The notes below the pieces were generated by a model. That model searched no databases. It saw nothing but the letters and a program-made list of their open reading frames with translations, and was not told the origin of the DNA. The position numbers were made by a program, and so were the translations under genes. A stretch of DNA of 50,344 nt. Origin: Nitrospira sp. CG24A. Its GTDB lineage: Bacteria; Nitrospirota; Nitrospiria; Nitrospirales; Nitrospiraceae. Positions within the stretch are counted from its first letter, which is position 1, and the number at the start of each line of letters is the position of its first letter. Below are positions 19,884-29,755 of this stretch, in pieces. The stretch lies in contig NEWT02000028.1 of NCBI GenBank assembly GCA_002869925.2, positions 64,908-115,251 on the forward strand, in the 5' to 3' direction.

Positions 19884-22148
19884 TCAAACCGATTCCGGAG
19901 GTATCGCGTGATACATTCCATCCTCTGCCAGAAACTCGATGTCGCCCGTGACGACATCGTACATCGCGCCGACGATTGCGATCCGCCCCTCCCGGACGAG
20001 ACCGTCGAGCGTCCGGCTCTGCTCGCGCATCTGTTCAACAACCCGTAATACGTTGCGGCGGGCCACGGCATCGACGAACGATTGCTTCTCGGCAGCTGGT
20101 CGTGCTTCGACGGCCCTGCAGGTGGCCGGATCGATCGATTGCTGGATGTCTTTGAGGATGTAGTCGAGGTGCTGGCAACCGGTGGCCTCGGCGGCCGTCC
20201 GGACCTCGCCGATGAGGTTGACGGCTGCTGTGACAGCGCCGCACCGGGTATGTCCCATGACCAAGATCAGTTTTGCCCCGGCCACCGCACAGCCGTACTC
20301 CGCGCTGGCCAGCACCTTCCAGCTCGTAACGTTGCCGGCGATGCGGACGCTGAAGATGTCGCCCATGCCCAAATCGAAGATCAGCTCAGCAGGTGTGCGG
20401 GAATCGATGCAACTGAGCACGACGGCCAAGGGATGTTGCCCCTCGGCCGTGGCGCGGGCCTGGCGGACGAGGTCGCGGGTCAACCGCCGGCCGCTGCGAA
20501 ACCGCGCGTGGCCGCCCTTCAGGATGTGCAAGACCTGCTGCGGCGTGAGTGCATCTTGCAGGTCACGGGTCGAGTAGTCCACATACTGAATCTGGTCGTC
20601 AAATTGATACTCGCTCCGAAACCCAACCAGGCTCACTTCGACGCCGCGGGCCGGCCCCGTTTGTTCCTTAAAATCTCGAATCAGGTCGAGCACGTCCGGG
20701 TCGATGTAGTCCGTATTCTGCGCGTCGAGCAACACATCTCCGCCGCGGGGAACCTCGTTTAACACTTTGGACAGGGCAGCGCGATTCAGGAAACTCACCT
20801 GGTTGGCCAGCTCGATGTGCACCACGTCACCACCCAGGTGCTGCTCCACGAAACGGCGAATCGGCTGGCGCATGTTGCTGTAGAGAATAATGCCTGCGCT
20901 CACCGTCAGTCCGATCAGAACCCCGATCAGCAGATCGGTCACGACGATGGCCACCACCGTCAACGCAAAGGGGGCGAACTGGTATCGTCCCTCACTCCAC
21001 ATCTGCCTCACCAGCGCTGGGCTGGCCAGTTTGACGCCCGTGACCACGAGGATCGCCGCCAGACAGGACAGCGGGATCAAGTTCAGCCATACCGGCAGGA
21101 GCGCGACGCTGACCAGCAGGAAAACGCCGTGGATGACCGCGGCGAGTTTCGTCTTCCCTCCGGCGTTGATATTCACGGAGCTGCGAACGATCACCGATGT
21201 GATCGGCAGTCCGCCGATCAGTCCGGCGGTCATGTTCCCGATCCCCTGAACCAGCAGTTCCCGACTCGCGGGCGAAGTCCGCTGCTGGGGGTCGAGCTTA
21301 TCGACCGCCTCCAGATTCAACAGCGTTTCCAGTGAGGCCACGGTCGCAAGCGTGACGGCGGCGGTGTACAGGGCCGGGTTCGCCCACTGCGAGAAGTCGG
21401 GTAATTGCAGAAACCCGAAGAATCCCGCCAGGCTGTCCGCTACCGGCACTTGCACAAGGTGACTCGGCTCGATGACCCACGCCCCGCCGAGTTGTCGGAA
21501 CCACAGGCTGACTCCGACGCCCAGCAGCACCACAATCAGCGGTGCGGGAACAGGGGAGTGCTTCAACGGCTTCCACTTGCCCCACACGAACAGCACCACG
21601 ATCGACAAGAGGCCGATCGCGGCCGCGCCGGGGTGGATGTCCCCGATCGTTCGGGCCAATTCGGAGAACGTGTTCTCATGGTCCGGTTGTTGGAAGGCCA
21701 GATCCCCTTCCGGGTCGGGGTCGTGGCCGAAGAGGTGGGGGATCTGTTTCAGAATCAGGATCACCCCGATGGCGGCCAGGAGGCCCTTGATGACGCTGGA
21801 TGGGAAGAACGCAGCGAGGAACCCGGCCCGGGCGAGTCCCAGGCCGATCTGGATCAGACCCGCAAGCACCACCGCCAGGAGGAACGCCGGGAACGACCCA
21901 AGTGCCACGATCTGAGCGGCAACGACCGCTGTTAAACCGGCGGCCGGGCCGCTGACGCTGGTGTGCGACCCGCTCAACATCCCCACGAGGATGCCACCAA
22001 CGATCCCGGCCAATACCCCCGAGAGTAATGGCGCACCGGACGCCAGCGCCACCCCTAGACACAAGGGCAGCGCCACGAGAAACACCACCAAGCCGGACGT
22101 GAGGTCCCGCGGCAAGGTAGCAGATGACGGACCGTTCGTCTGCAGCAT
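19884..22148 (-). CDS. SulP-family anion transporter fused to beta-carbonic anhydrase
   Basis: A 754-aa fusion. Residues 10-400 are a SulP membrane domain with about ten or more helices, starting with LTSGLVVFLVALPLCLGVAL. A cytoplasmic STAS domain follows (about 415-510), and then a complete beta-carbonic anhydrase (about 545-754). The anhydrase has zinc ligands Cys580 in CIDSR, with Asp582/Arg584 as catalytic dyad, and His633 and Cys636 in GHTRC. Such fusions are known and are thought to import bicarbonate (or sulfate) and interconvert it with CO2; the combination fits an autotroph supplying HCO3-/CO2 to carbon fixation. I use the ATG at 22148, which begins right before the family's N-terminus; an upstream ATG at 22235 would add 29 residues without a good ribosome site. 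Confidence 0.92.
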   Translation of the reverse strand: MLQTNGPSSATLPRDLTSGLVVFLVALPLCLGVALASGAPLLSGVLAGIVGGILVGMLSGSHTSVSGPAAGLTAVVAAQIVALGSFPAFLLAVVLAGLIQIGLGLARAGFLAAFFPSSVIKGLLAAIGVILILKQIPHLFGHDPDPEGDLAFQQPDHENTFSELARTIGDIHPGAAAIGLLSIVVLFVWGKWKPLKHSPVPAPLIVVLLGVGVSLWFRQLGGAWVIEPSHLVQVPVADSLAGFFGFLQLPDFSQWANPALYTAAVTLATVASLETLLNLEAVDKLDPQQRTSPASRELLVQGIGNMTAGLIGGLPITSVIVRSSVNINAGGKTKLAAVIHGVFLLVSVALLPVWLNLIPLSCLAAILVVTGVKLASPALVRQMWSEGRYQFAPFALTVVAIVVTDLLIGVLIGLTVSAGIILYSNMRQPIRRFVEQHLGGDVVHIELANQVSFLNRAALSKVLNEVPRGGDVLLDAQNTDYIDPDVLDLIRDFKEQTGPARGVEVSLVGFRSEYQFDDQIQYVDYSTRDLQDALTPQQVLHILKGGHARFRSGRRLTRDLVRQARATAEGQHPLAVVLSCIDSRTPAELIFDLGMGDIFSVRIAGNVTSWKVLASAEYGCAVAGAKLILVMGHTRCGAVTAAVNLIGEVRTAAEATGCQHLDYILKDIQQSIDPATCRAVEARPAAEKQSFVDAVARRNVLRVVEQMREQSRTLDGLVREGRIAIVGAMYDVVTGDIEFLAEDGMYHAIPPESV

Positions 22149-22354
22149 GGAGCCACTCTTCTTTTTCGGTCGGTAGGCTACAAAAGGTATTAAACTGTGG
22201 GGCGTGGTCGGCGTTAGGGACGCTTCGACCGACATGCGTCTACGGCGCTGAACCGTGTATTACTGTATTCGCTAGGCATGCACAGGTCTGCATGTCTGCA
22301 ACGAACTTGCTGAAGATGTCACCCTGACCCGAGTTGAACGTACGACCCACGGGT

Positions 22355-23137
22355 TTAGGAAACGTGCGATTCCGGGGTTCGAACAAGACGATGTGCCAGG
22401 AAGCGGAGGATCTCTTCGACTTCTCCCTGATGCTTGATGAAATACCCCGCCCGCGACTTTTCATGCCGGCCCACTCGCACCCCCATGGCAAGCCCTTCTG
22501 ACAGCTCGAAGACATCCTCATCTGTGTCGTCATCGCCGATGAAGAACAGATGCGTCTGCCGCACATGCTTCATGAGAGCCAAGGCGGCTTGCCCTTTTCC
22601 TTGTTGCCCCGGGTACAACACATTCACCGAGGCTTTTCCAAATATGAGACGCGGAGTCGGCGTGAGCTGATCGAGAAGGACGACCAGAGCCCCACGAGCC
22701 TTGATCGGATCATCGGCCCCTCGATAATGGAAGGTGAGGGTATAGCGTTTATTTTCAACTTCAATCCCATAGTGCTTGAGCGGTTGAGCAAAGTCCGTGC
22801 TCACTCGCTTCATCCATTCCGCACAGACTTGTTCAGCCAAGATCAAGGCCGCGGGAGTCGCGCAGGGGCTTTCCAGCCCGTGATTCCCGATCAAATAAGG
22901 AACCGCTCGATCGACCCGCGGCGCAAGATCGGCAAGCGCCCGACCGGAAATCACCGCGCAGGGTGCGCGTGTTCCAAGCTCCTGTAACGGTTTATGCACG
23001 GAAGATGGAATTTTGACAGAGTCTCGATCCGGCGAGATCGGCGCAAGCGTCCCGTCGAAATCGAAGGCGTAGAGGACGGGCTTCTCAGTCAACGCGCACA
23101 GTGCCCGGCGCCCCTCCTCAGAAAGCACATAGGTCAT
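22355..23137 (-). CDS. otsB: Trehalose-6-phosphate phosphatase
   Basis: A 260-aa HAD-superfamily phosphatase converting trehalose-6-phosphate to trehalose, a compatible solute. HAD motif I is DFDGTLAPI at 26-33, containing the nucleophile and acid-base Asp pair; motif II is VISGR near 62; the C-terminal acidic motif GDDDTDEDVF near 200 coordinates Mg2+. Length is normal for OtsB. Its ATG overlaps the stop of the upstream synthase by 4 nt, so the two enzymes are made together. Confidence 0.93.
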   Translation of the reverse strand: MTYVLSEEGRRALCALTEKPVLYAFDFDGTLAPISPDRDSVKIPSSVHKPLQELGTRAPCAVISGRALADLAPRVDRAVPYLIGNHGLESPCATPAALILAEQVCAEWMKRVSTDFAQPLKHYGIEVENKRYTLTFHYRGADDPIKARGALVVLLDQLTPTPRLIFGKASVNVLYPGQQGKGQAALALMKHVRQTHLFFIGDDDTDEDVFELSEGLAMGVRVGRHEKSRAGYFIKHQGEVEEILRFLAHRLVRTPESHVS

Positions 23138-25383
23138 GCCTGACCGCCTGTGGCCGTGCGCGCGTCTCGCGCCCCCGTTTGGCGGGCGATGCGGGCTCGT
23201 TGCCGCATCCGAGCCGCATCCATCAGCATGCGCCCAGCCCAGCGATACACGTTAAATTCCTGCACAATGTCGCGCATACTACGCATGCGAGCCCGTTGTT
23301 CGCTTGGAGACATGGTTAGAGCCACATGCAGAGCAGCCGCGCACTGATCGATGTTGTACGGATTGATGATGAGCGCCTCGGGTAATTCAGTCGCGGCGCC
23401 GGTGAATTGGCTGAGGATCAGCACACCTTGCTCGTCGTCCCGCGCGGCGACGAATTCTTTCGCCACGAGATTCATGCCGTCATGGAGACTGCTGACGATG
23501 CAGAAGTCGACCCCTCGATAATGCGTCGCGATCTCTTGGGGATCGTGGTGTTCGATCCGGAGAGAAATCGGCTGATATCCCTCGCGCCCAAATCGTTGAT
23601 TGATGCGTTCGGCCGACGCACGTACTTGCTGCGTGAGCTGCTGATATTGTTCAATCTTGGAGCGGCTGGGGGCAGCGATTTGGATGAAGGAGAATATGCC
23701 AATCCATTCCGGCTGCAGTTCCAGAAGCCGTTCGACAGCAAGGAACCGCTCGAGAATACCCTTCGTATAATCCATTCGTTCGACGCCGAGGCCGACGCGC
23801 TGTGTGTGTGGGAGTCCGTTGCTCGAACGAATATGCGTCCGACAGGTCGGCACAGGCGGCTGTTCCTTGAGCACCCGACTCGGCCATTCGATTGAAATCG
23901 GGTAATGGTTCACCGCGGTTAACTTGCCGCCGTATGAAATGGTAGAGCTGTCCCAATCGATCTTCGTTTCCAGTGCGCGATCCACCGTTTCGATGAAGTT
24001 GGTGCGATTGAAGCGCGTGTGAAACCCGAGAATGCTGCTTCCCAAGAGTCCTTCGAGAATTTCTCGATGCCACGGACAAATCGCATAGCGCTCGGGATTA
24101 GGCCACGGAATGTGCCAAAACATAATGATCGTGGCATTCGGTAACAGATCTCGCACCATCTTGGGCACCAGCGCAAGGTGGAAATCCTGCACGAGTACAA
24201 CAGGGTTGTCGGTTTTGGCTTCCTCAATAATAGCCAACGCAAATCGCTCATTGATCTCCCGGTACCGTTGCCAGTCGGAGGTTCGGAACACAGGGCGCAC
24301 ATGGGCCAGATGGCAAAGCGGCCAAAGCCCCTCATTGGCAAATCCGTTGTAGTACCCGTCTTCTTCCTCCGGCGACATCCAAATCCGCCTGATCTCATAG
24401 GCGGGATTGTCCGGTGGGACGCGGACATGGCCGCGCGCATCGACGACCTCTCGATCAGCCGTGCCACTGCCGTGGGCAATCCACACGCCCGAGCAAGCAC
24501 GCATGACCGGTTCAAGGGCGGTGACGACGCCGCTGGCCGGAACTTGGACTTCGATATCTTGTCCATTCCAATTGTGGAGGTAGGGCTCGCGATTGGACAC
24601 GATGAGCACTTCGTCCCCGGCAAGATGGTCATGGAGAATGGCTTTCAATGTCGCCGGGGTCCAGCTCATCTGATGTTCATCCCTCAAGCGTTTATCCGCT
24701 TCGAGATCGTGAATGAGGGAACGAAGATCCTGAGCGACCGGCAGGAGATCGGCGCCATGCGGCTGATCGCCGATCAGGGCAGTCAACCCTTTGCCACGGA
24801 GCAGCGCTCGCACGCCTGTCACCCATCCACGCCAGCTCAGGTGCGCAACCAACACGGTCACAAGGGAAATCACCACGCCGATGATGGCAAACAGATAGAA
24901 GAGGTACCACTTCGTGTCGCTGCTTCGACGCTCAGCCCAGCTCATATCTTGGACCAGCATGAGGCGCCCCCATGCGCGGCCATTTCCCTCTATGCCGATC
25001 GCGGAGACATGGACCGTCCCTTGGGTCAGTCCCACGAGAGCGGTCTTCCCGGCTACAAGCGTGGTGGTTCCATCGCACGGGATTGAATCAGGATAGGTCA
25101 ACGTTTTATAGGTCAGCTTACCCTCACGGCTGCAAAACCCAATGGCAAAGAGCCGTTCGTCCTGAATGATTCGGTTAAAATAGTTGTGTAATTTTGTCTT
25201 GGATTCCGCCGCCAGAAGATCTACAAGGGGCGCTTCGACCGTGCGGCCGATGAGTTCCGACCGCATCTCGAGATCCCGCACAAACCATTTCAACGTCAAG
25301 GTATCGACAAGGGGAATGACGGCATAGGCCAAGACGGCTAACACCAAGGCCAGCGGCAGTAGAAATCGAAGCGATAAGCGCAT
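23134..25383 (-). CDS. otsA: Membrane-anchored trehalose-6-phosphate synthase with periplasmic sensor-like module
   Basis: A 749-aa protein. The C-terminal part, from about residue 255, is a GT20 glycosyltransferase joining UDP-glucose (or another NDP-glucose) and glucose-6-phosphate. Markers are VSNREPYLHNW, LVQDFHLALVPKMVRD, IMFWHIPWPNPE, GFHTRFNRTNFIE, GVERMDYTKGILERFLAVE and DGMNLVAKEFVAARDD. Unlike ordinary OtsA (about 450-480 aa), it has an N-terminal extension: TM helix at about 7-28, about 130 residues of periplasmic sequence with two cysteines (GFCSREG and SIPCDG), a second TM helix at about 160-183, then a HAMP-like linker. This is the layout of a sensor kinase input module fused to a metabolic enzyme, suggesting that trehalose synthesis is controlled by an envelope signal. 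otsB overlaps its end. Confidence 0.92.
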   Translation of the reverse strand: MRLSLRFLLPLALVLAVLAYAVIPLVDTLTLKWFVRDLEMRSELIGRTVEAPLVDLLAAESKTKLHNYFNRIIQDERLFAIGFCSREGKLTYKTLTYPDSIPCDGTTTLVAGKTALVGLTQGTVHVSAIGIEGNGRAWGRLMLVQDMSWAERRSSDTKWYLFYLFAIIGVVISLVTVLVAHLSWRGWVTGVRALLRGKGLTALIGDQPHGADLLPVAQDLRSLIHDLEADKRLRDEHQMSWTPATLKAILHDHLAGDEVLIVSNREPYLHNWNGQDIEVQVPASGVVTALEPVMRACSGVWIAHGSGTADREVVDARGHVRVPPDNPAYEIRRIWMSPEEEDGYYNGFANEGLWPLCHLAHVRPVFRTSDWQRYREINERFALAIIEEAKTDNPVVLVQDFHLALVPKMVRDLLPNATIIMFWHIPWPNPERYAICPWHREILEGLLGSSILGFHTRFNRTNFIETVDRALETKIDWDSSTISYGGKLTAVNHYPISIEWPSRVLKEQPPVPTCRTHIRSSNGLPHTQRVGLGVERMDYTKGILERFLAVERLLELQPEWIGIFSFIQIAAPSRSKIEQYQQLTQQVRASAERINQRFGREGYQPISLRIEHHDPQEIATHYRGVDFCIVSSLHDGMNLVAKEFVAARDDEQGVLILSQFTGAATELPEALIINPYNIDQCAAALHVALTMSPSEQRARMRSMRDIVQEFNVYRWAGRMLMDAARMRQRARIARQTGARDARTATGGQA

Positions 25384-25761
25384 AGATCACCTCTCGTGTA
25401 CGTCGATCGATCAGGCGCCCGTGGTATGGCGTCTATCATTACGACCTTATCGGCAATTGTCAAACCCCAGCGCTGGTCGGATTTGGTCTCGTCGCTGCAG
25501 AGACCGGCGCTTTCACCTAGGAGCCTACGCTCTTGCTCACAGAAGGCGTCTCGCTGCGATGTGGACCAAGGGCAAGAAACTCACGAACAGAAGCATAAAC
25601 CAGCGTGGAGGCGAGAACCTGCACAGGGGCAGATGGTACAGCGTCACATATGAAACCGCGTTAACCGAGAGCGTCAGTTGAAGGGACAAAACGGCACACA
25701 ACGAAAACCTTCATGACTCTCCCATTCTTCTCTCACTCTCCCCTATGAGCGTACCCCTCTG
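25384..25761. other. 378-bp intergenic region
   Basis: Upstream of otsA and downstream of the first stress-protein gene. Open frames of about 85 codons on the plus strand show no protein character. I see no repeat of families A or B; it presumably contains the otsAB promoter. Confidence 0.5.
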
Positions 25762-26625
25762 TCATCGAACCACAAGTACGGCCCCCTTCGCGTGCTGCAC
25801 CACTCGTGTCGACACACTCCCGATGAGAAACCGGGCGATGGCGCCGAGCCCTTGGGCCCCCATCACGATCAGATCGGCCCGTTGTTGCGAAGCCGCCTTC
25901 ATGATCTCCTGCGCAGGGTTCCCAAGATAACACAGCGGCTCGGCAGTAAATCCCGCTTTAATCAGCTTCTGCACGCTCTGTTCGAGCAACTTTTTGCTGG
26001 CCTCCTTTAACCCCGGGTACATGACCATCGGCAGCACATGGAGCACGTTCACGTGAATCGGCACGCGCCCACTCTTGCCGGTCGGCTGATCCGACTGAAA
26101 CTTGGTCAGCACAAACTTCAGAGCTTTGGCCGAGGCATCCGACCCATCGATCGCCAAGATCATCCGCCGTAACGGCACCGCCTCGCCTTTGACGACGAGG
26201 ACCGGACAGGTGGCATGATGAATGAGATTCGTCGAGACGCTGCCGAGCATGAAGCGGTCGAGAGCGTCGAGGCCCTGACTGCCCACCACCAGGAACCCGT
26301 CTCGTTTGGGCGCGCGTTTCAAGATCGTTGGGGCGACCGGCCCTTGCTCCTTGCGAACCGTTCCCGTAAGCTTCAGCGAGGCCAACTGTCGTGTCGCTTC
26401 CTGGATGGTCTCGGCTGAACGCGCCTCCATGCGCTGGATTTCCTCTTGAACATACGGCTCGATACCGGCCATCGCCGGTTGCGCCAGAAACGGCGCACGG
26501 AGCGTAGCGACATCCAGCACATGCAATGCCATGACCTTTGCCGGTTCAACAAGCGGCAACCGGGCCACCCAGTCCAGTGCCCATCGTCCATACTTCGATC
26601 CATCCGTCGCCACAAGCACATTCAT
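25762..26625 (-). CDS. Tandem universal stress protein (UspA x2)
   Basis: A 287-aa cytoplasmic protein with two UspA domains. Each ends with an ATP-binding motif of the G-x2-G-x9-G-S type: VVGSQGLDALDRFMLGS in the first half, VMGAQGLGAIARFLIGS in the second. Both domains start with the usual beta-strand plus Asp (VLVATDGS; MILAIDGS). Two-domain ATP-binding Usps help survival during energy or oxygen limitation. I prefer the ATG at 26625, where the domain begins, over the ATG three codons earlier; the upstream GAAAGG fits the former. It is followed upstream by a close paralogue, suggesting tandem duplication: their C-termini are nearly the same (SVSTRVVQHAKGAVLVVR versus SVSTRVVQYANGAVLVVR). 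Confidence 0.9.
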   Translation of the reverse strand: MNVLVATDGSKYGRWALDWVARLPLVEPAKVMALHVLDVATLRAPFLAQPAMAGIEPYVQEEIQRMEARSAETIQEATRQLASLKLTGTVRKEQGPVAPTILKRAPKRDGFLVVGSQGLDALDRFMLGSVSTNLIHHATCPVLVVKGEAVPLRRMILAIDGSDASAKALKFVLTKFQSDQPTGKSGRVPIHVNVLHVLPMVMYPGLKEASKKLLEQSVQKLIKAGFTAEPLCYLGNPAQEIMKAASQQRADLIVMGAQGLGAIARFLIGSVSTRVVQHAKGAVLVVR

Positions 26626-26740
26626 GGTGCCCATCCTTTCATCAATTGAGTTCTCACTGCGTTCGAGCCGACAGACAGAAACCGGCGGTCACCTGCTTGA
26701 GGCGATAGCCCCGACAACGCGACAGAGCACTCTCTCTCCG

Positions 26741-27619
26741 TCATCGAACGACGAGCACGGCACCGTTCGCGTACTGCACCACTCGCGTCGACACGCTGCC
26801 GAGAAAAAACCGATCAAGCGCGCCCAGCCCTTGGGCCCCCATCACGATCAGATCCGCCTGTTGTTTCGACGCCGCTGCCATGATCTGTTCAGCGGGATTC
26901 CCCACCCGGCTCACGGACTTGGCCCTAAATCCCGCCTCGATCAGCTTCTGCACACTCTGGTCGAGTAAAGTCCGGCTTTCCTCCTTGACCTTCAGTCTCC
27001 GTTGCTGGGTCCAGGGGATCGTCGTGCCGATATCGAAGAGGGCTAACGGGCGGCGTAGGGTCACATGGATCACGCTCACATGAATCGGCGCCGACCGGCC
27101 CTTGCCGGTCGGCCGATCAGGCTGAAACTTGGCCAGCACAAATTCCAGGGCTTTGGCCGATGCAGGGGACCCATCGGTCGCCAAGGCGATGCGCCGCAAG
27201 GGGACCGCCTCGTTCTTGACGACGAGCACAGGACAGGTCGCCTGCTGGATGAGTTTCGTCGACACACTGCCGAGTGTGAAGCGGTCGAGGGCACCGAGGC
27301 CCTGACTGCCGACCACTAGGAGCCCATTGTGTTTGGGTATGCGCTTCAGGATCGTCGGCGCCACGCTCCCTTCTTCCTCACGGACCGTACCCCTCAGTTG
27401 CAGCGCCGCCAACCGCTCGGTGACGTTCTTGAGGGTTCGTGCCGAGCGCGCTTCCACGCGCTGCGTCTCTACCTTCGTCCGAAACGGCAACTGAAGCCAC
27501 GCACGATCAAGCACGTGCAGCGCCAGGACTTTGGGCGGCTCGACCAGCGGCAGCTTGGCCACCCAGTGCAAGGCCCAGTGCCCGTACTTCGATCCATCCA
27601 TCGCCACGACCACATTCAT
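26741..27619 (-). CDS. Tandem universal stress protein (UspA x2), paralogue
   Basis: A 292-aa two-domain UspA protein. Domain 1 starts VVVAMDGSKYGHW and has VVGSQGLGALDRFTLGS; domain 2 starts RIALATDGS and has VMGAQGLGALDRFFLGS. Both ATP motifs are intact. Compared with its neighbour it carries a few extra residues in the domain-2 loop (TIPWTQQRRLK). An AGGAGG site lies 7 nt before the ATG. It directly follows the PFK gene, 19 bp away, so it probably belongs to the FNT-PFK transcript. Confidence 0.9.
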   Translation of the reverse strand: MNVVVAMDGSKYGHWALHWVAKLPLVEPPKVLALHVLDRAWLQLPFRTKVETQRVEARSARTLKNVTERLAALQLRGTVREEEGSVAPTILKRIPKHNGLLVVGSQGLGALDRFTLGSVSTKLIQQATCPVLVVKNEAVPLRRIALATDGSPASAKALEFVLAKFQPDRPTGKGRSAPIHVSVIHVTLRRPLALFDIGTTIPWTQQRRLKVKEESRTLLDQSVQKLIEAGFRAKSVSRVGNPAEQIMAAASKQQADLIVMGAQGLGALDRFFLGSVSTRVVQYANGAVLVVR

Positions 27620-27638
27620 GATGCACCCTCCTAGGTGT

Positions 27639-28904
27639 TTAAGAGCCCGTTATCTTCGACCCAACAGGCTGAAACCGGTCTCGAAAGGCCTCCGGCGATA
27701 GCCCTGTGAGGGCTGCATAACGGCCCAATGCGACAGGGTCTGTGACATCTTCGTCGGATAGCCGGACCATGTACTGGCGCGCAATCTGATACGACTGCGC
27801 CGTGATGTCCACCATCCGTACTTTCGCACGGCCGCTGACGGGATCCACCATCTGCGGGAAAGGAATCGGGGTAAATCGCCCATTTTGGATCGACACCATG
27901 GCCGCCGTGCCTCCATCCAGAAGAAACTGCGCCGCACAAAAACCGAGATCGCGGGTGTACTCCATATCGAACGGGATCGGGTCCGCACAGCGTAATTCAT
28001 ACCCCACATTCTTCGCAACGATCGCCGTCGTCAGTCCCAAGGCTTTCATCCCCTTTGTCACTTCACGCCGGAGCACATCGCCGATATCCACATCTGCTAA
28101 TCGAAGGTTGCCATGCTCATCCCGCTCGACATGCTCCAAGCCACCCAAGTCTTGCGGATCAAGAATCTCGATCAGTCCTTCCGCCAACACAACCACCCCG
28201 TCAGAGCGCCCTCCGCTAAGCCGCTTGATCATCGTCCCGATGACGAGATCGACCAGGCGCTGAAGCTTCACAGGTCGCTCCCCAAATTCCTCGGGAATAA
28301 TCGTAAGGGTCGCGCCGACAGCCTTGCCGACTCCAAGCGCCAAATGGCCGGCTTTCCGCCCCATGGTCACCGCAAAATACCAGCGCGAAGTCGTGTGAGC
28401 GTCCACCATGAGGTTTTTCACGATTTCGACGGCGACATGCCGGGCCGTTTGAAAACCGAACGTCGGAATGCCATAAGGAAGATCGAGGTCGTTGTCGATG
28501 GTCTTCGGCACATGCACGATTTGAATCCGCCCGGCCGCCTGTTCCTCCAGTTTGAGCGATGAGAAGGCCGTATCGTCGCCGCCGATGGTCACCAAGCGTG
28601 TGACGCCCAGCTGCATCAAGGAGGACAGGACCTTGGCGAGAGGCTCAGCCTTCTTTGTCGGATTCGCCCGCGAGGTGCCCAGATACGAACCACCCCGGAA
28701 GTGAATGCGACTGACTTCTTCAATGGAGAGGGGGCGTACCCGACTCTCACTGCCTTCCATAAGCCACTTGAACCCATCGATAATGCCGATCACGTCGCAG
28801 CCGCCGAGTATGCTTCGGATCGTGACCGCGCTGATGACACTATTGATTCCCGGCGCCGGTCCACCCCCGACGAGGATACCGACAATCGTGCGAGACGTAT
28901 TCAT
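27639..28904 (-). CDS. 6-phosphofructokinase, pyrophosphate-type by residues
   Basis: A 421-aa glycolytic enzyme interconverting fructose-6-phosphate and fructose-1,6-bisphosphate. The PFK N-terminus GGGPAPGINSVISA is clear. The residues that separate donor types read GGDDT at 108-112 (Asp where ATP enzymes have Gly) and PKTIDND at 133-139 (Lys where ATP enzymes have Gly); in known families this Asp/Lys pair marks pyrophosphate use, which makes the step reversible. Later motifs such as VTMGRKAGHLAL support catalytic competence. I chose the ATG at 28904, overlapping the FNT stop as ATGA, over a start 17 codons upstream inside that gene. No ribosome site is visible, so translation is probably coupled to the transporter. 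Confidence 0.9.
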   Translation of the reverse strand: MNTSRTIVGILVGGGPAPGINSVISAVTIRSILGGCDVIGIIDGFKWLMEGSESRVRPLSIEEVSRIHFRGGSYLGTSRANPTKKAEPLAKVLSSLMQLGVTRLVTIGGDDTAFSSLKLEEQAAGRIQIVHVPKTIDNDLDLPYGIPTFGFQTARHVAVEIVKNLMVDAHTTSRWYFAVTMGRKAGHLALGVGKAVGATLTIIPEEFGERPVKLQRLVDLVIGTMIKRLSGGRSDGVVVLAEGLIEILDPQDLGGLEHVERDEHGNLRLADVDIGDVLRREVTKGMKALGLTTAIVAKNVGYELRCADPIPFDMEYTRDLGFCAAQFLLDGGTAAMVSIQNGRFTPIPFPQMVDPVSGRAKVRMVDITAQSYQIARQYMVRLSDEDVTDPVALGRYAALTGLSPEAFRDRFQPVGSKITGS

Positions 28905-29755
28905 GACGAGAGGGTTCCGGTGATCTGAGTTAAGCGTCGCAAATACACCGTCCAATAGACCAATGCGACGAGAACAGTCCCGCCGAAGATATTGCCGATC
29001 GTGACGAGCGCAAGATTGCTCAATGCATCAACGGCTGAGAGCGGCATCGAGGTTCCCGCAGCGAGTGCCACGCCGATGGGGAGAAAATACATGTTGGCCA
29101 CGGAATGTTCAAATCCGCAGGCGACGAAGGCACTGATGGGGAAAAGAATCGCAAGGATCTTATCCGTGACACTCCGTGCTCCCATGCACAACCAGACGGC
29201 CAGACAGACCAGCACGTTGCAGAGGACACCACGGGCTACTGCCGAGACCGGATCGAGCGCGATCTTGCCACGCGCAATCTGGACCATCGTCTCTCCGACC
29301 GCACCATCGCCCATGCTCTGTATGCCGGCCAGCCATACTAACACTGCTGTTCCAACTGCTCCGACCAGGTTGCCGAGATAGACCCATCCCCAATTCCTTA
29401 TGACTTGTTGTGTCGTCACTCGACCGGATGCCCAGGCCATGGCAATCAGGTTATTGCCGGTAAAGAGCTCCGCCCCGCCCACCACCACGAGAATGAGCCC
29501 CACACTGAACGTGATGCCACCCGCCACACGCATAAGCCCAAAGGGCATCTGTGGACCGGTTTTCCCCCCGGTCATTGTGATGGTAAAAAACACGGCGCCC
29601 AGCGCAATGAACGCCCCCGCCAAGACGGCCAGGGCAAACATGGTCAGGACCGGCATCGCCGCTTTCGCGACGCCGATTTCACGCACCCGCAAGGCAATCT
29701 CCGCGGGTGCGTAGGCATCGAAAAAAGCAATCGGGGTGGCGGTTGTTTGATCCAT
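28901..29755 (-). CDS. Formate/nitrite transporter family channel (FocA/NirC)
   Basis: A 284-aa inner-membrane protein of the FNT family, pentameric channels for small monovalent anions such as formate and nitrite. Six helices are apparent. Family signatures include ELFTGNNLIAMAW near 110-122, RGVLCNVLVCLAVWLCMGAR, and FVACGFEHSVANMYFLPIG with the central His of the pore. FocA (formate) and NirC (nitrite) cannot be separated by eye. Location between PFK and formate dehydrogenase favours formate, while the presumed nitrite-oxidising lifestyle makes nitrite equally attractive. Its stop overlaps the PFK start by 4 nt. A 10-bp inverted repeat lies upstream. Confidence 0.9.
   Translation of the reverse strand: MDQTTATPIAFFDAYAPAEIALRVREIGVAKAAMPVLTMFALAVLAGAFIALGAVFFTITMTGGKTGPQMPFGLMRVAGGITFSVGLILVVVGGAELFTGNNLIAMAWASGRVTTQQVIRNWGWVYLGNLVGAVGTAVLVWLAGIQSMGDGAVGETMVQIARGKIALDPVSAVARGVLCNVLVCLAVWLCMGARSVTDKILAILFPISAFVACGFEHSVANMYFLPIGVALAAGTSMPLSAVDALSNLALVTIGNIFGGTVLVALVYWTVYLRRLTQITGTLSS

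Follow-up and report, generated by a model that had tools for sequence, protein, structure and literature searches.

Transmembrane sensors of the PAS/Cache type are known with signalling outputs: kinases, cyclases and chemoreceptors. In the two-TM kinases (WalK, CitA, DcuS, KinD and LuxQ), a first transmembrane helix (TM1) is followed by a periplasmic PAS/Cache domain, a second transmembrane helix (TM2) and a helical linker. Trehalose-6-phosphate (T6P) synthase, OtsA, has been described in other settings. The canonical enzymes of E. coli and Mycobacterium thermoresistibile are soluble and consist of a GT20 domain alone, with otsB adjacent, whereas OtsA–OtsB fusions (TPSP) reach ~740 amino acids through a C-terminal OtsB and have no TM segment. 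In the archaeal msc-gt-tpsp operon of Thermoproteus tenax, the TPS gene is linked with that of a mechanosensitive channel and TPS activity depends on contact with a partner protein, an activating glycosyltransferase; channel and enzyme are separate and there is no sensor fusion (PMC3634074). Arthrobacter OtsA is tied to osmotic sensing, acts on cell shape via T6P and is described with no mention of a TM sensor module (PMC5685639).

The protein analyzed here is encoded within a 50,344-nucleotide stretch of the Nitrospira sp. CG24A genome (hereafter the window, to whose positions coordinates refer unless stated otherwise). It shares with canonical OtsA a full GT-B domain (31–33% identity, VIA Z 38–40) and an adjacent otsB, but it carries 257 extra residues that form a membrane sensor module, and its GT20 domain falls in a clade of its own. 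With the two-TM kinases it shares the layout of the N terminus and, via a divergent subfamily, sequence homology; unlike them, it has no HisKA or HATPase_c domain (Pfam), its output is biosynthetic and a HAMP domain is unrecognizable in its subfamily. The TPSP proteins, which it resembles in length and in having GT20, formed a separate set in our surveys. No published account of this sensor-OtsA architecture was found in the literature searched, which left most subscription journals beyond reach. Sensor-OtsA is a new combination of known parts.

The gene lies at 23134..25383 on the minus strand, as do all window features given below, and its open reading frame encodes a sensor-fused T6P synthase of 749 aa with a Pfam GT20 domain. 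A ribosome-binding site rated good, GAGAGGTGA (25387..25395), stands just ahead of the otsA ATG. The T6P phosphatase gene otsB (22355..23137; Pfam Trehalose_PPase, 3e-26) has a 4-nt overlap with the otsA stop, in agreement with the coupling proposed from the letters, and its product scored 97.9 bits against TIGR00685 (NCBIfam T6PP), over the cut-off of 68. One scan of species genomes yielded 80 homologous loci, with 76 full-length proteins of ~740–750 aa. Their single open frames rule out an artifact of ORF joining. Length was dropped as the sole marker of the fusion; many GT20 proteins of ~740 aa in these phyla are OtsA–OtsB fusions. At 76 of the 80 loci otsB lies downstream of sensor-otsA, and no other conserved neighbor was found across them: the window's Usp, PFK, SulP-CA and FNT genes recur in the nearest relative only, or nowhere. 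Directly 3' of otsB (19884–22235) is a fusion of a SulP-type anion transporter with a beta-carbonic anhydrase domain (Pfam Sulfate_transp, Pro_CA). Upstream of otsA (25762–28955) lie genes for a phosphofructokinase and for two universal stress proteins with tandem domains, an arrangement that the window shares with the nearest relative only.

Hydropathy analysis of the N terminus gave exactly two TM segments, TM1 (residues 8–26, 25306..25362; Kyte-Doolittle maximum 2.66) and TM2 (residues 161–179, 24847..24903; maximum 2.84). The periplasmic part between them (residues 27–160, 24904..25305; ~134 residues) has C84 (25132..25134) and C103 (25075..25077) as its sole cysteines. The sequence-only reading had proposed just such a topology, two N-terminal TM helices flanking a two-cysteine periplasmic domain of ~130 residues, and had called for modelling of this region. 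An AlphaFold2 model of residues 1–257, with 34 relatives in the alignment, had a mean pLDDT of 78.6, with values of ~85–90 over residues 11–190 (save loop 100–120) and values below 60 in the linker. It begins with a long helix containing TM1 (2–59), followed by helix 62–76, five strands forming an antiparallel sheet and a second long helix containing TM2 (148–195). The best Foldseek and VIA-align matches were all sensor domains of kinases or chemoreceptors (WalK, LuxQ, DctB, CitA, DcuS, KinD), with Z scores of 11–13 over 110–180 residues at ~10% identity. The model thus places a domain with the fold of the PAS/Cache (PDC) superfamily between two TM helices, and the N terminus is no disordered anchor. 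Curated Cache and CHASE families gave no match above cut-off in either subfamily A (that of the window protein) or the divergent subfamily B; the sub-threshold matches were to CHASE4 in 3 of 34 subfamily A members (E 0.003) and to sCache_3_2 (E 4e-4) and dCache_3 (E 2e-4) in subfamily B. The subfamily A profile found nothing significant among PDB sequences. Pfam matches to Adeno_E3B at the TM2 region were read as hydrophobic-segment matches with no kinship. The assignment of the N terminus as a PAS/Cache-type sensor, made by fold and homology with no curated family match, is well supported.

The homology was found through subfamily B, which occurs in other Nitrospirota and in Deltaproteobacteria and agrees with subfamily A in length and layout but lacks the cysteines. 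Comparison of the two subfamilies with hhalign joined them along the whole N terminus (99.6%, E 4e-24). The subfamily B profile matched the extracellular sensor of WalK by sequence (PDB 5is1, E 3.5e-4) and, in the genomes, a kinase in which Pfam recognizes HAMP, HisKA and HATPase_c (L195; positions 2–262, 261 of 273, E 3e-18), as well as two other non-OtsA kinases (L204 and L206). A profile built from its periplasmic part only matched the latter two at 3e-17 and 8e-6, respectively (E values scaled to 10,000 sequences). Homology of the sensor module to histidine-kinase input domains is well supported by these profiles. Because both the full and the periplasmic-only profile match kinases, the architecture represents the fusion of a histidine-kinase input module with a GT20 enzyme.

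All 76 full-length homologues carry the entire N-terminal module, and the survey therefore found the same architecture, with a conserved N-terminal region, in several phyla. Carriers belong to Nitrospirota (Nitrospira), Bdellovibrionota, Pseudomonadota (Betaproteobacteria), Desulfobacterota-type Deltaproteobacteria, Nitrospinota and Peribacteria. In the non-redundant set, identity to the window protein is 34–59% for the periplasmic part and 63–81% for the enzyme; the lower periplasmic conservation fits sensing, and would also fit a spacer. Both cysteines are invariant (76/76), as are D37, R41, H125, G139, R153 and four residues of the junction with the enzyme (W241, L246, L250 and G256) in 34 diverse members. 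Pairwise dN/dS was 0.03–0.19 for the periplasmic part and 0.02–0.09 for GT20, values that point to purifying selection on the sensor. A frame of 207 aa in a same-genus genome (G161 contig 8, 42657–43049) retains the sensor module no further than its first ~134 residues; no GT20 match was found in that genome, and the frame is possibly a decayed or truncated otsA.

The N terminus might instead be a mere membrane anchor that sites trehalose synthesis at the envelope, its sensor fold a relic with no gating function. GT20-only enzymes such as E. coli OtsA do work without such a module, and the linker shows neither a HAMP family match nor good model confidence, all of which suits an anchor. Yet the domain is folded as a sensor, its invariant positions include D37, R41, H125, R153 and both cysteines, the junction residues W241, L246, L250 and G256 are invariant too, it is under purifying selection, and a plain anchor has never been substituted for it in the sampled clade. 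These features make the anchor reading improbable.

The cytoplasmic linker (residues 180–240, 24664..24846) stands at the position of a HAMP domain and is modelled as helix-loop-helix, with helices up to residue 195 and at 213–238 and pLDDT of 43–60 in between. Pfam HAMP had no match at E≤1 after TM2 in any of the 34 subfamily A members. Two subfamily B members gave sub-threshold HAMP matches (E 0.1–0.23), and the HAMP part of the subfamily B profile had no match to kinase HAMPs. The HAMP-like linker of the earlier reading therefore survives in part: the position holds, and a low-confidence model gives it a helix-loop-helix form. We regard the linker as HAMP-like in position only, since the sequence does not establish a HAMP domain. 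It leads into a junction helix (residues 241–257, 24613..24663) that contains the four invariant residues named above; the tryptophan and first leucine are invariant over subfamilies A and B alike. With no significant match to HAMP and low model confidence there, the linker is a putative route of transmission.

The GT20 catalytic domain (residues 258–723, 23215..24612) is intact and covers almost the whole Pfam profile (positions 2–471 of 473, E 2e-116), as the sequence-only reading had stated. OtsA structures matched the full-length model from residue 256 onward (Z 36–40), and the GT20 domain gave VIA Z scores of 40.2 to 5jio and 38.1 to E. coli OtsA (1gz5). Of the 11 residues listed as contacting UDP-glucose or G6P in E. 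coli OtsA (PMC1769515, where numbering is one below that of the translated sequence), 10 are kept: R265, G285, Y345, W354, D400, H424, R536, R574, D635 and E643, corresponding to E. coli R9, G22, Y76, W85, D130, H154, R262, R300, D361 and E369. The Trp40 position is ambiguous: W301 is kept, and H304 replaces the second WFGW tryptophan of canonical enzymes. This His304 is clade-wide, as is His634 in place of the E. coli Arg before the DGMNLVAKE motif; the two may mark altered substrate handling. The NCBIfam OtsA equivalog (TIGR02400) scored 405.7 bits, under its cut-off of 564.85, and the catalytic part is best filed as a divergent OtsA clade outside the equivalog.

The noncanonical histidines and the shortfall against the OtsA cut-off (405 versus 565) would suit an enzyme that makes another product, such as glucosylglycerol phosphate, or one that is inactive and purely regulatory. 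That possibility is very slight: the OtsA model scores far above the GgpS model (405 versus 281), 10 of the 11 substrate residues are retained and otsB is coupled to the gene. Furthermore, in many other Nitrospira the sensor form is the only GT20 and must therefore be able to supply T6P, if trehalose is made by this path. The window's own genome has a second, plain OtsA (G000 contig 16, 24552–25976; L002), 39% identical in GT20.

A quick IQ-TREE phylogeny of 128 GT20 domains, 58 of them sensor-bearing and 70 others, placed 58 of 58 sensor-OtsA proteins from several phyla, the window protein and 57 others, in one clade (support 98), with none of the 70 others inside. No sampled clade member is without the sensor module. 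Long-branch rows (E. coli, L229 and L230) fall far from the sensor-clade branch, and the closest neighbors of the clade are plain Deltaproteobacteria GT20 enzymes (L227, support 81). A single fusion followed by long retention is the simplest reading of this tree; rare losses may have occurred, given the limited sampling.

The nature of the cue was approached through gene context. In other Nitrospirota, mscS lies directly upstream of sensor-otsA at two loci (L242 and L243), and the order otsA–otsB–mscS occurs at three (L093, L097 and L144). At L242, L243, L093, L097, L144 and L134, mscS directly adjoins otsA, and in several the gene ends overlap. No mscS match was found in the window, and none adjoins otsA there. 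A different fusion, in which an MscS-type domain (Pfam beta-domain, 8e-11) is N-terminal to GT20, is shared by five genomes from a single Nitrospirota family (L211:481-2649, minus strand; also L231–L235), with 80–82% identity over the full length. Its GT20 domain lies on a different branch of the tree from sensor-OtsA, and MscS-OtsA is of separate origin. Because mscS stands beside sensor-otsA elsewhere and MscS-OtsA is a separate fusion, osmotic or envelope stress would be the likeliest cue; the context favours an osmotic one, with all of this evidence, we stress, coming from loci outside the window's own.

A sensor-enzyme could also be built to answer the redox state of the periplasm, through C84–C103, or a small molecule, whether an organic acid, an amino acid or a fragment of the envelope. 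By the titles of the matched structures, the PAS/Cache sensors CitA, DcuS and DctB bind small acids, and the cysteines are invariant in subfamily A. Redox as a general cue is excluded, however, by subfamily B, which has the same architecture without such cysteines, and the mscS context again speaks for osmotic state. We therefore consider a non-osmotic cue unlikely, though less so than a mere anchor.

The reading that we favour, and hold to be probable, is a receptor-enzyme: a T6P synthase with an observed sensor architecture that would be gated by an envelope cue. Such gating of trehalose synthesis is a reasonable inference from the architecture. The PAS/Cache-type sensor, held between two TM helices in the inner membrane, would be changed by a periplasmic cue, most likely osmotic or envelope stress. 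TM2, the helical linker and the conserved junction helix would relay the change to the synthase, presumably within a dimer, and T6P synthesis would rise or fall at once with no transcription step. The co-translated OtsB would then convert the product to trehalose.

More tentatively, with the balance tipped slightly against it, there may be a class of receptor-enzymes in which trehalose synthesis is switched by a transmembrane sensor and osmotic state acts directly on the enzyme, a design built at least twice (as PAS/Cache-OtsA widely and as MscS-OtsA in one Nitrospirota family). The output of sensor-OtsA is an osmoprotectant biosynthetic enzyme rather than a signalling one. Sensor, linker and enzyme are separable and swappable, which makes for a clean test system, and MscS-OtsA, an independent design built on a membrane-tension module, could reveal how an enzyme's activity can track turgor. 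If gating is true, ecologically important nitrifiers and members of several other phyla would combine sensing and response in one polypeptide, faster than transcription.
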